Assembly: GCA_937883785.1 (NCBI GenBank)
Contig: CALGDE010000109.1
Span: 1-64,000, forward strand
Length of the DNA stretch: 64,000 bases
DNA from: an uncultured cyanobacterium
GTDB taxonomy: Bacteria; Cyanobacteriota; Cyanobacteriia; CACIAM-69d
Direction of reading: 5' to 3'
Every line of letters begins with the position of its first letter. The stretch's first letter is position 1. The notes below the pieces were generated by a model, which worked only from the letters and a program-made list of their open reading frames with translations, did not search any database and had not been told where the DNA came from. Shown piece after piece: positions 2,837-8,418 of this stretch. The translations under genes and the position numbers were made by a program.

Positions 2837-3603
2837 AAACAGTGACTAACGGATTTTTAGATGATTTTTCAGAGCAATGGCAACTGCTCTTCATTTTGAA
2901 TTGTAAACAAATTGTAAATGAATACCTCGACTATTCTTGCCTGTCGTCACGACTATTCTTGCCTGTCGTCATAGGACAGGGAATCAGCTAAGCCCTACGA
3001 GACTCTACACAGCGAGGAAACCCCTTTTCGGGCAGAACGCAAAATATTAGGCGCAGCTCCCCTGGTCATCATTAGCCTTGATATCCACTTGACCCAAGCC
3101 ACTAACTTCAAGGGGTTCGGAGAAAGACAAACTCGCTGACTTTAACAGCAACCCTGACGATGAAATCGCCTCTAACTTAGTCGTCCAGTAGCTCTCCCTA
3201 TGGTCCACGAGACAGCTCACAAGCTTCGCGAAGTCTTGCAATAAGCTAACGCCATAACAGAGCAACTACGCCAAACGATTCTGCGCCCCAAAACGCACAT
3301 GTAGCAATGGCAACACAGTTTTAAACAATATATTAAGTTCTGGCTCCACTATTGAGAAAGATAGTCAGGTTCTCTCTACCATTGCAAGAAGTCACCACCA
3401 AGGCTCAACCAGGATTTCAATCAACGTTTCTGTGCCGATCCAGCTTGCTTTCACCCAACGGTTAAACCGATAGGGCGCCTGCAAAGCTGCTGAGCCAGCC
3501 TCGTTCTCGTTTCAGTCTTGGTGATGTCAGGAACGTTGAGGACACAGTGCTTCAAATGTTCAGAAGAGCCCGTAGAAGAAGAACGCTTGTAGCGAGGTAA
3601 ACG
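2837..3603. other. Intergenic region between mutS2 and the antenna locus
   Basis: This 767-bp gap holds the divergent promoters of mutS2 and the PSI antenna genes. It contains a perfect 22-bp tandem duplication (listed separately). I looked for a Fur box of the GATAAT-type repeat, expected if the antenna genes respond to iron, and found none convincing. A 72-codon minus-strand ORF at 3047-3265 starts with TTG, has no Shine-Dalgarno sequence and no recognisable content, so it is not called. Confidence 0.5.
2928..2971. repeat. 22-bp perfect tandem duplication
   Basis: Two adjacent identical 22-bp units (2928-2949 and 2950-2971), each beginning CGACTATTCTTGCC. They lie about 90 bp upstream of the mutS2 start, so they may fall in its promoter region. 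Confidence 0.9.
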
Positions 3604-4674
3604 ATGGCAAAACCACTGCTGTGGACGCCAGTCTTCCGCACCTTAGGCTGGAAACCAGACAAAAAAAGTGACGATGCCGCAGGGCAAAGCTCTGGCACAG
3701 GGCTCCTTGGGGGCAATATCCGCTTTTTAGACTTGTCTGGAAAACTGCTGGGAGCCCATGTGGCACACGCTGGATTAATTGTGCTGTGGGCAGGGGCGAT
3801 GACCCTGTTTGAGTTATCGCGATTCGATGTTTCCCAGCCCATGTATGAGCAAAATTTAATTTTGCTGCCCCACCTAGCCACTCTGGGACTGGGCATCGGC
3901 GACGGCGGTCAAGTTGTTGACCTCTACCCCTACTACGTAGTGGGAATGTTGCATCTGATCAGCTCTGCCGTTTTAGGCGCTGGTGGTATGTACCACTCTG
4001 TGCTCGGTCCCAAAGTACTAGATCCCAAAGGCTTTGGCTACGACTGGGAAGACGGTGGCAAAATGACCAGCATTTTAGGATCGCACCTGGTAATTCTGGG
4101 GCTGGGCGCTTTAGCGTTAGTGCTAAAAGCCAGCGTATTAGGTGGCATTTACGACCCTACGGTCGGAGAGGTGCACCTGATCCAGCCCAATTTAGATCCA
4201 TCCCGCATTTTCGGATACCTATTTGGATTTAGCCCTGACGGCTGGACCCTTAGCGGGATGGCCAGTGTGAACAACCTGGAAGATGTAATTGGTGGTCACG
4301 TGTGGGTGGCGATTCTCTGCATTTTTGGCGGCATTTTCCATATCGCCACGAAGCCACTGAACTGGGCGAAACAGCGCCTGGTGTGGTCTGGAGAGGCCTA
4401 CCTGTCCTACAGCTTGGGGGCACTGGCATTGGCTGGCTTTAGCGTTGCCTGCTTTGCCCTGGTTAACACCGTTGCTTATCCCGAAGTGTTCTACGGTCCT
4501 GCGGGATCAGTGTCGCCAGTTCGGAATGCCTTATCTAGCGTCCATGCCACCCTTGGGTTTGTGGCTTTGCTGGGGCACCTATGGCATGCATATCGTGCCC
4601 GGTCCGCTGCTAAGGGTGTTCAGTTTGGCACCTTTTTTGATTACGTCGCTCGCGATGTGGAAATTGCAGCTTAG
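3604..4674 (+). CDS. CP43'-like chlorophyll-binding antenna protein (IsiA/Pcb superfamily), first paralogue
   Basis: A six-helix chlorophyll a antenna protein of the CP43/IsiA/Pcb family in the thylakoid membrane. The 356 residues carry an N-terminal extension of about 40 residues, then the family pattern [15 protein letters not shown], a [10 protein letters not shown] motif, [10 protein letters not shown], and a C-terminal [15 protein letters not shown] resembling photosystem II CP43. The large lumenal loop between helices 5 and 6 of true PsbC is missing, so this is an antenna and not a PSII core subunit. The start is supported by GCGAGGT a few bases upstream. It opens a run of four same-strand genes. 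It most resembles the CBP-IV/VI groups, but I cannot assign the subgroup without a tree. Confidence 0.9.
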
Positions 4675-4944: not shown

Positions 4945-5976
4945 ATGGCTGTCGCTAGTGAAGCGATCGCTCAGATCCCCTGGAGGGCAGGTAATGCTCG
5001 TCTGGTGAATCTTTCCGGAAAACTGCTGGGCGCTCACGTAGCCCACGCCGGGTTGATCGTTTTTTGGGCAGGGGCAATCACTCTGTTTGAGGTGTCGAAC
5101 TACGACGTTACCCAGTCCATGTACGAGCAAGGGTTGATTGTTCTTCCCAACTTGGCTCGCCTTGGCTTTGGCATTGGTCCCGACGGAGCCGTTGATACTT
5201 ATCCCTACTTTGTGGTGGGGGCGCTACACCTGATTAGCTCTGCATTTTTGGGCGCTGGCGGACTATTCCACTCCCTGAAAGGACCGTCCACTTTGGAAGG
5301 CAAGTTCGATTTCTTTGGCTACCAGTGGAACGATGCCCGCAAAATGACCACCATTTTGGGCATCCACCTCACCCTGTTGGGATTGGGGGCATTTCTGCTT
5401 GTGGCGAAAGCCATGTACATTGGCGGACTTTACGACCCGGCAATCCAACAGGTACGTGTGGTTTCCAGCCCCACCTTGAGCTTTACAAAAATCTTTGGCT
5501 ACCTGGTGGGTACCCAAGGTAAGTTTTGGCTTGCGGGCGTAGACAACCTTGAAGATGTGGTAGGCGGTCACATTTGGATCGGCGCGATTTGCATCCTTGG
5601 CGGCCTATGGCACATGCGGACGGCTCCCACTAGCTGGGCGAAAAAGCTGTTTGTGTGGTCTGGGGAAGCCTATTTGTCCTACAGCATTGGCGCTGTTAGC
5701 CTGATGGCTTTTGTGGCGACCTTGTTTGTGTCCGTCAACTCCACCGTGTTTCCCGTAGAATTCTTCGGTCCCACTTTGGTGCTGAAGTTTGACCGATTCC
5801 CGGTGTTTGCCAGCGCTGATGGCGGTGCGGCAACGGTTCGGGTTTGGTTGGCTAACGCCCACTTCTGGCTCGGATTCTTCTTTTTACAGGGTCATATTTT
5901 CCATTCCCTTCGCGCAGCGGGTTACAGCTTCAAGGAAGGTCGCGTAATTGAGTCTACTCGGGGGCAGGTGGTATAA
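4945..5976 (+). CDS. CP43'-like chlorophyll-binding antenna protein, second paralogue (IsiA-like)
   Basis: 343 residues, the usual IsiA length, six membrane helices. It has the [15 protein letters not shown] helix 1, [14 protein letters not shown], and an IsiA-like end, [14 protein letters not shown] followed by [10 protein letters not shown]. The CP43 lumenal loop is absent. A strong Shine-Dalgarno AGGAGG sits six bases before the ATG. The 270-bp gap from the first paralogue, with its own strong ribosome site, allows either an internal promoter or a long operon. The stop codon directly abuts the ATG of the next gene, so this gene and the PsaL fusion are surely co-transcribed. It is expected to bind chlorophyll a around photosystem I; classical IsiA is iron-stress induced, but I see no proof of that control here. 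Confidence 0.9.
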
Positions 5977-7539
5977 ATGACAGTCGCAAAATTCCGTCCT
6001 CCAGGCGCAGTGGATTTTCCTGGGGGCACTATTAATGTCCAATCCGTTAAGGATTCAGTTGATCCAAAGTCCTGGTGGGCAGGAAACTTCCGATTCCGGG
6101 ATCTATCTGGAAAGCTGCTGGGGGCTCATGTGGCCCACGCAGGACTGATTGTTCTGTGGGCGGGCGCGATGACGCTGTTTGAGCTGTCGCGCTTTGATGT
6201 GACCCAGCCTATGTTCGAGCAAAATTTGATTTTGCTGCCTCACCTGGCAACGCTGGGGTTGGGGGTTGGTGCTGGTGGGCAAATTGTGGATACCTATCCA
6301 TACTTTGCGATCGGTATGGTTCATTTGATTGCTTCAGCTTTCCTAGGCGCTGGTGGTATTTACCACTCTGCCTTAGGTCCCGAAGTGCTTGATGAGACTG
6401 GATTTGGGTACCGTTGGGAAGACGGTGGCAAGATGACTTCCATCTTGGGATCTCACTTGGTGCTTCTGGGAATGGGGGCGCTGTTGTTGGTGCTCAAAGC
6501 CTGCGTTTACGGAGGACTCTATGACCCAGCGATCGCCGATGTGCGCATCGTTGACAGCCCCACCATCAGCCCTTTGAAAGTATTTGGCTACGTGGTGGGC
6601 ATCACCCCCGATGGCTGGACTCTCAAGGGAATGGCTGCCGTTAACAACCTCGAAGATGTTGTGGGCGGTCATATTTGGATTGGTATCACCTGCATCGCTG
6701 GTGGTCTTTGGCACATTGCCTCTCAGCCCACCGGCTGGGCGAAGAAGGTGCTGGTGTGGTCCGGCGAGGCATATCTGTCTTACAGCCAAGCAGCCCTCGC
6801 CTATATGGGTTTCTTTGTGTCTTTCTTTGTGTGGGTTAACGACACGGTTTATCCCGAGGCGTTTTACGGTCCTGCTCAGACCCTGGTAGTGAATGGCGCT
6901 ATTACGCCTCGCACCTGGTTGATGCTGTTCCACCTAATTTTGGCTAGCTTGCTTTTGGCAGGACACATTTGGCACGGTCTACGCTCTCGGGCGATCGATG
7001 CTGGCTTTGTGTTTAGCGAAATGAAGTTTGCGCAAGAAGGTAGCTTTGGCGAAACGGATTTTTCCGGCGGTCCCATTTCCATGGGTATCGTTCAGCCCTA
7101 TCGCAATGATGTTCTACAGGGCAGCTTCAACACTCCCGTCAATGCCAGTCAAACTAGTTTGGCTTGGTTAGACAACCTACCCATTTACCGGGACGGGCTG
7201 GCGCCATTTACCCGGGGCTTGGAAATTGGCATGGCCCACGGCTATTTGCTGCTGGGACCGTTCTACAAGCTTGGTCCCTTGCGCGGTTCTGACAATGCTC
7301 TGTTGGCAGGATGGGGAGGCGCTTCCGGTTTGGTGGTAATTCTCAGCTTGTGCCTTCTGATGTATGGCTTGGCAGTATTCCAGGGCGATCGCAAAGCCGT
7401 GGGTGTACTTCCTGAAAACATCTATAACTACCGAACCTGGAGTCTGTTTAACTCAGGCTTCTTGGTAGGCGGTTTGGGTGGCGCAGCATTTGCAGCATTT
7501 ATCGTGCTGGAAATTGCTCGCGCAGGCATCTCGGGCTAA
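5977..7539 (+). CDS. CP43'-like antenna protein fused to a photosystem I PsaL domain (CBP-V type)
   Basis: 520 residues in two parts. Residues 1-350 are a full CP43'/IsiA-like antenna ([50 protein letters not shown]). From about residue 369 there is a near-complete Psa[36 protein letters not shown], then two further hydrophobic segments. PsaL is the PSI subunit at the trimer interface. The fused copy ends in [10 protein letters not shown] and lacks the extra C-terminal residues that native PsaL places at that interface. The fusion architecture is known in some cyanobacteria. Inference: the PsaL part docks the antenna directly into PSI in place of normal PsaL. The start ATG follows the previous stop with no gap, suggesting translational coupling. 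Confidence 0.92.
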
Positions 7540-7713: not shown

Positions 7714-8418
7714 ATGGCAATTCCAACCTTAAGCTATTCGCCAACGAGCCAAAATCAGCGCGTTAATGGCTATGAGATTACTAACGACGAACAGCCTAAA
7801 ATCTACAGCGTAGAAAACTTACCCCAGGGCTCAGAGCTAGACGAGATTATTTGGGCTGCCTACCGTCAAGTCTTCAATGAGCAGCAGATTCTGGACTTTA
7901 ACCGGGAAAAGAATTTAGAGTCTCAGCTGCGCAGCGGTCAAATTACCGTTCGCGAATTTATGCGGGGCTTGATACTGTCGGACACTTTCCGCCGGTTGGA
8001 CTACGAAACTAACAGCAACTATCGCCTTGTGGAGCTGTGCATTCAGCGTCTTCTAGGGCGGGCAGTATACGGTGAGCCAGAAAAAATCACCTGGTCCATC
8101 GTAATCGCCACAAAGGGTCTACAGGGATTTGTGGACGAGCTGATTAACAGCGAAGAATATTTGGATAATTTCGGGGACGATATTGTTCCTTACCAGCGGC
8201 GGCGTGTGCTTCCTCAGCGAAACAGTGGTGAAATGCCTTTCGCGCGGATGGCGCGTTATGACTCCAACCACTTGGATACGAAGCTACGACTGGGTCTGCT
8301 GAAAATTTACAAGCCTGTGGTTGATAACAGCAGTAAAGTCTACCGTCGCGCCGTTGTTGCACTGGGAGCCGGTGCGGTTATTATGCTGGTTCTAACTTTG
8401 GGATTGGCTGTGACCTAA
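7714..8418 (+). CDS. cpcL: Membrane-anchored phycobilisome rod linker CpcL (CpcG2)
   Basis: A rod-core-type linker that attaches phycocyanin rods to photosystem I rather than to an allophycocyanin core. Residues about 20-165 form a phycobilisome linker domain ([43 protein letters not shown]). Residues about 212-233 are a hydrophobic tail ([18 protein letters not shown]). That C-terminal membrane helix is the hallmark separating CpcL from soluble CpcG. At 234 residues it has the expected length. It lies 174 bp behind the PsaL-fusion antenna gene on the same strand, so both chlorophyll and bilin routes to PSI are encoded together. The ribosome site is weak (AGGGGAAA, somewhat far from the ATG). 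Confidence 0.9.

Follow-up and report, generated by a model that had tools for sequence, protein, structure and literature searches.

An antenna-PsaL fusion that is apparently the only PsaL in a cyanobacterial genus

In the cyanobacterial genome analysed here (G000) the only PsaL-domain gene found is an antenna-PsaL fusion, located at 5977..7539 (+ strand) of the window, by which we mean the whole 64,000-nucleotide stretch of DNA, and the same single-gene state was found in a congener (G001). Elsewhere, in most cyanobacteria bearing such a fusion, it is an iron-stress alternative that competes with ordinary PsaL. We consider it probable that in this genus the iron-stress antenna-PsaL became the standing PsaL, the ordinary psaL having been lost and PSI having become obligately monomeric with a tethered antenna. 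The fuller picture, a genus without separate PsaL whose antenna is covalently in the PSI core in all conditions, with monomeric PSI and a dedicated phycobilisome linker, strikes us as slightly likelier to be right than wrong. Earlier publications describe fusions of this class, a monomeric PSI complex containing one (7Y3F) and the cluster of four genes that includes CpcL; what is apparently new is a genome whose only PsaL is the fusion and from which the control box has apparently gone. The open-access literature searched yielded no description of a cyanobacterium in which the fusion is the sole PsaL.

The fusion frame encodes 520 aa, and its ATG immediately follows the TAA of cpB, the CP43-like gene before it (TAAATG). 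Its N-terminal part is a CP43-like six-helix domain (6070..7011, +), recognised by a Pfam PSII/CP43 match (PF00421, residues 32-301), by alignment with 7Y3F and by the helices of an AlphaFold model. The match covers only profile positions 4-272 and 446-482, so the large lumenal E loop of CP43 is missing. The PsaL domain (residues 372-520; 7090..7536, +) matches Pfam PsaL (PF02605) over residues 372-511 (E=6e-49) and ends in a tail, EIARAGISG, of 9 residues beyond the common core end (FAAFIVL). The original prediction had described this near-complete PsaL, from residue 369 to an end at ARAGISG, and had rightly treated the fusion class as known. The AlphaFold model is mediocre (pLDDT 68, shallow alignment) and was used only for helices and the PDB match, not for tail geometry. 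By sequence and by fold the best PDB relative is 7Y3F chain 1, which is Anabaena IsiA2.

Antenna domain, PsaL domain and tree placement all put the protein in the CP43-like/PsaL fusion class (CBPV; IsiA2 of Anabaena, IsiA4 of JSC-1). In the PsaL-domain tree it falls inside a 25-row clade that holds fusions only, of A-type, with support 100/100, and the stem to the two congeners is long (0.43). Judged by sequence it is an A-type fusion, the ortholog of Trichodesmium and Leptolyngbya JSC-1 IsiA4, and by homology to 7Y3F its PsaL domain would occupy the PsaL site of PSI. Both halves are under purifying selection, with dN/dS between the congeners of 0.037 in the antenna domain and 0.057 in the PsaL domain. 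We considered and rejected the idea that, once psaL was lost, the PsaL domain reverted toward the stand-alone sequence: the genus-specific substitutions have no such trend, one of the nine (A503) being the usual stand-alone residue.

The fusion lies in a cluster of the order cpA-cpB-fusion-CpcL. The first gene, cpA (3604..4674, +), encodes a CP43-like antenna of IsiA2 type; cpB (4945..5976, +), whose stop abuts the fusion start, encodes one of IsiA3 type; and the fourth gene (7714..8418, +) encodes a phycobilisome rod linker of CpcL/CpcG2 type that has a hydrophobic segment at its C-terminus. These three were assigned from Pfam and from ortholog gene order. The same order is found at nearly all of the 29 named loci (among them those of Nodosilinea, Leptolyngbya, Trichodesmium, Okeania, Richelia and Brasilonema), and it is that of the isiA2-isiA3-isiA4-cpcG2 cluster. 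By gene order the cluster is therefore a structural ortholog of the latter, but we do not class it as an iron-stress cluster, because it lacks a recognisable Fur-like box upstream (below). Elsewhere in the family (G002-G005) the fusions belong to a different type and adjoin isiB. A few fusion loci are irregular. An Okeania hirsuta frame of 924-941 aa (L079:3706-6480) has two PsaL segments and is seemingly a fusion duplicated in tandem. Of L097 and L105, the Hydrocoleum fusion has stop codons in its PsaL part and the Leptolyngbya RL_3_1 fusion has a frameshifted PsaL end; each appears to be either broken or affected by sequencing errors.

The search for a second PsaL gene was negative in both congeners. 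The Pfam PsaL profile detected only the fusion in G000 and no second gene in G001, and no separate PsaL gene of ~150-200 aa was found in either genome. With a same-family stand-alone PsaL as query, tblastn (E<=10) returned the fusion alone in G000, and in G001 one insignificant match (E=0.08) besides the fusion. The starting assumption of the original prediction, an inducible fusion next to a normal PsaL, thus finds no stand-alone PsaL to rest on in G000. At the ancestral location, four further members of the family (G002-G005) have a stand-alone psaL beside psaF, in the order psaF-psaJ-psaL. In G000 a single contig carries tsaD, psaF and psaJ, then a non-coding stretch and a gene for an M48-type peptidase; the DNA is contiguous, and neither psaL nor psaL remnants were found at the psaF-psaJ site. 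In G001 tsaD, psaF and the same M48-type peptidase are together, again with a contiguous site and no psaL. Loss of ordinary psaL in this genus is well supported by these genome sequences.

A normal psaL might instead be present in both genomes but fall in an assembly gap, or have been relocated to a plasmid or contig missing from the assembly. Both genomes are drafts, of 167 and 730 contigs, and G001 is a metagenome bin that is 93% complete; the single-PsaL result is carried by these two genomes of one genus, G001 being the sole congener sequenced. However, G000 is 99.99% complete, and psaA, psaB, psaF and psaI were all found in it. The contiguous, psaL-free ancestral site in both congeners argues against a gap while leaving room for a relocated gene. 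Altogether we judge a hidden psaL to be quite improbable.

We measured how rare such a genome is by running a fusion-weighted PsaL profile over 390 genomes of the class, with complete counts per genome and with long-frame fusions defined as frames of at least 369 aa. Long-frame fusions occur in 55 of the 390 genomes, and a single PsaL-domain gene in G000 and G001 only. The full listing of 96 relatives likewise has these two alone with a single PsaL-domain gene. Each of the 29 named genomes that carry an A-type fusion retains at least one PsaL of stand-alone length, and PsaL is kept in nearly all of the 390 genomes of the class. Separately, one 5.5 Mb cyanobacterial genome that is 99% complete (G201) gave zero PsaL matches, and three genomes of one genus (G324, G346 and G386) gave only very weak ones.

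The second line of evidence is the control region. A motif, ATGAGAATtATTnTCAATAAg, was learned with a home-made model from orthologous upstream regions, leaving out the window. It lies upstream of the orthologous clusters, in two of them upstream of a leading isiA, and we infer that it is a Fur box. Every orthologous locus scored has it with a leave-one-out p<=0.01, the weakest being L071 and L078. It is clear before one of the two same-family B-type clusters tested, and it also precedes the isiAB operon of G000 itself. That operon is a separate, classical isiA-isiB (flavodoxin) operon (L065:8651-10310, contig C120 of G000) with a strong Fur-like box ~105 bases before isiA. A scan with the classical E. 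coli Fur consensus was uninformative and was set aside in favour of the motif learned from orthologs.

No Fur-like box was found by this motif scan in the intergenic region before the cluster (2837..3603, strand not assigned), although such a box is usual in orthologs. The best site, at 3348-3368, is weak, scoring 3.1 with p 0.16 over 300 bases and 0.33 over 767, and nothing was found before the G001 cluster (p 0.75-0.89). Failure of a home-made motif model to detect a box does not prove constitutive expression, and L071 and L078 score low too. The same region contains a block, running from AGCAATGGCAACA to TTTTAAACAATATATTAA (3302..3338, +), that is well conserved with G001 and includes a promoter-like hexamer pair at 3307-3334. 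This block could be the cluster promoter, and promoter matches in the upstream region are not above chance. A perfect 22-bp tandem direct repeat, CGACTATTCTTGCCTGTCGTCA, lies at 2928-2971.

PsaL is dispensable in laboratory strains, and because of this the fusion could still be conditional. It may have remained an iron-stress protein while psaL was lost as dispensable, in which case iron-replete PSI would have no PsaL and the fusion would fill the site under stress only. The orthologous Trichodesmium cluster is indeed strongly iron-repressed, being >300-fold lower upon iron addition (PMC12090762), and PSI complexes without PsaL exist, as in the PSI1-IsiA13 complex, where PsaL was probably lost in purification (PMC12808642). 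The weak site at 3348-3368 can moreover be read as a persisting degenerate half-site. Yet neither congener has a credible Fur-like box before the cluster, while isiAB in G000 keeps one, and the retention of PsaL across nearly all of the class suggests that its long-term absence in replete cells is selected against. We regard this explanation as unlikely.

The original prediction centred on the end of the PsaL domain, which it took to be some ten residues short. The tail is indeed shorter than that of stand-alone PsaL in the same family, but the deficit is ~5 residues against the median stand-alone PsaL and 5-8 against its own family, not ten. Stand-alone tails have 9-17 residues in the sampled genomes, mostly 14-15, and 14-17 within the family; some stand-alone PsaL of heterocystous and other cyanobacteria have tails equally short (9-10). 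Where the 3′ end is intact, A-type fusions have tails of 7-11 residues with a single exception of 15, and other fusion classes range from 2 to 16. Since nearly all of the orthologous fusions stop at the same point, the short tail is a clade trait and is not peculiar to the fusion of G000. Truncation of the tail was dropped as the key feature, being common to the orthologs and overlapping in length with stand-alone PsaL.

In the version first proposed, an inducible fusion works beside a normal PsaL and its short tail blocks trimers. Changes at the PsaL C-terminus can turn trimers to monomers; in Synechocystis one His added there is enough to shift PSI to monomers (PMC6328476). Together with the shorter tail relative to family stand-alone PsaL, this speaks for such a role. 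Against it stand the lack of any stand-alone PsaL found in G000, the existence of homologous fusions with full-length tails of 13-16 residues (L117, L127, L131 and L107), which the original prediction had itself named as counting against it, the stand-alone PsaL with tails of 9-10, and the Anabaena complex 7Y3F, in which the block on oligomerisation is attributed to the N-terminal antenna domain of IsiA2 and not to a tail (PMC9938196). We keep, in agreement with 7Y3F, the expectation that PSI with the fusion forms no trimers and carries the antenna where the trimer face used to be; we do not keep the tail as cause of the trimer block, and the version as a whole appears highly improbable. Because C-terminal changes disturb the Synechocystis trimers, the short tail may contribute to trimer loss in a minor way, being neither necessary nor diagnostic.

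An in-frame ATG, Met369 (7081..7083, +), lies at the expected native PsaL start and is common to the congener (L070). As a speculative internal start it would let the fusion gene also yield free PsaL. At this position the 14 further A-type fusions compared have T, Q, E, S or A in place of Met. No promoter-like site was found on the + strand inside the fusion gene, and no good Shine-Dalgarno sequence was found before Met369. We think it very unlikely that free PsaL is made in this way.

Given that neither an ordinary PsaL nor a recognisable iron-type box was found, we most simply read the fusion as the permanent PsaL and PSI as obligately monomeric. Under this proposal of a standing fusion PsaL, the PsaL domain would take the PsaL site and hold one CP43-like antenna domain at PsaA, and the tethered antenna may nucleate more subunits, namely cpA, cpB and further IsiA. 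The fusion would keep PSI monomeric, a PsaL-PsaL trimer becoming impossible, and through the neighbouring CpcL a phycobilisome rod would join this PSI complex. The fusion would probably be made without iron repression and serve as the standing PsaL, so that every PSI containing PsaL would carry a built-in antenna. Constitutive expression of the cluster is suggested by its upstream sequence, monomeric PSI in this genus is predicted by analogy, and the link of CpcL to the PSI complex is presumed.

The core composition of cyanobacterial PSI is near invariant, and antennas of IsiA type are seen as additions made under stress, in competition with PsaL. If our reading is true, this lineage shows a facultative antenna turning into a fixed core part, it offers a natural test of the purpose of PSI oligomers, and it would allow PSI-antenna complexes to be obtained without iron starvation.

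Known systems share the architecture and differ mainly in keeping ordinary PsaL. In Anabaena sp. PCC 7120, IsiA2 (All4002; 7Y3F chain 1) likewise joins a CP43-like domain and PsaL in one chain, and its C-terminal domain sits in the PsaL site of a monomeric PSI (PMC9938196). It is a B-type fusion of 476 aa with an even shorter tail, whereas that of G000 is A-type, and Anabaena has a competing stand-alone PsaL that gives PSI tetramers, of which no counterpart was found in G000. Closer are the isiA2-isiA3-isiA4-cpcG2 cluster of Trichodesmium erythraeum (Tery_2483-2486) and the isiA2-isiA3-isiA4-cpcG2-isiA5 cluster of Leptolyngbya JSC-1, both described in PMC12090762, which have the gene order of G000 and are iron-stress induced. 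The Trichodesmium genomes examined have the same short A-type tail but keep stand-alone PsaL and the Fur-like box before the cluster, neither of which was found in G000. The PsbC-PsaL hybrid Nsp37500 of Nodularia spumigena, a CBPV-class protein of the same architecture, was proposed as a hard-wired antenna addition to monomeric PSI (PMC3610870); it coexists with a stand-alone PsaL (Nsp40050), and none was found in G000. In Chroococcidiopsis thermalis the IsiA-PsaL protein Chro_2988, proposed to prevent PSI trimers, is ~80-fold commoner in white than in far-red light (PMC8827656). Its abundance thus tracks light colour in a strain that also encodes stand-alone PsaL proteins, whereas the fusion of G000 is apparently the only PsaL that its PSI has.
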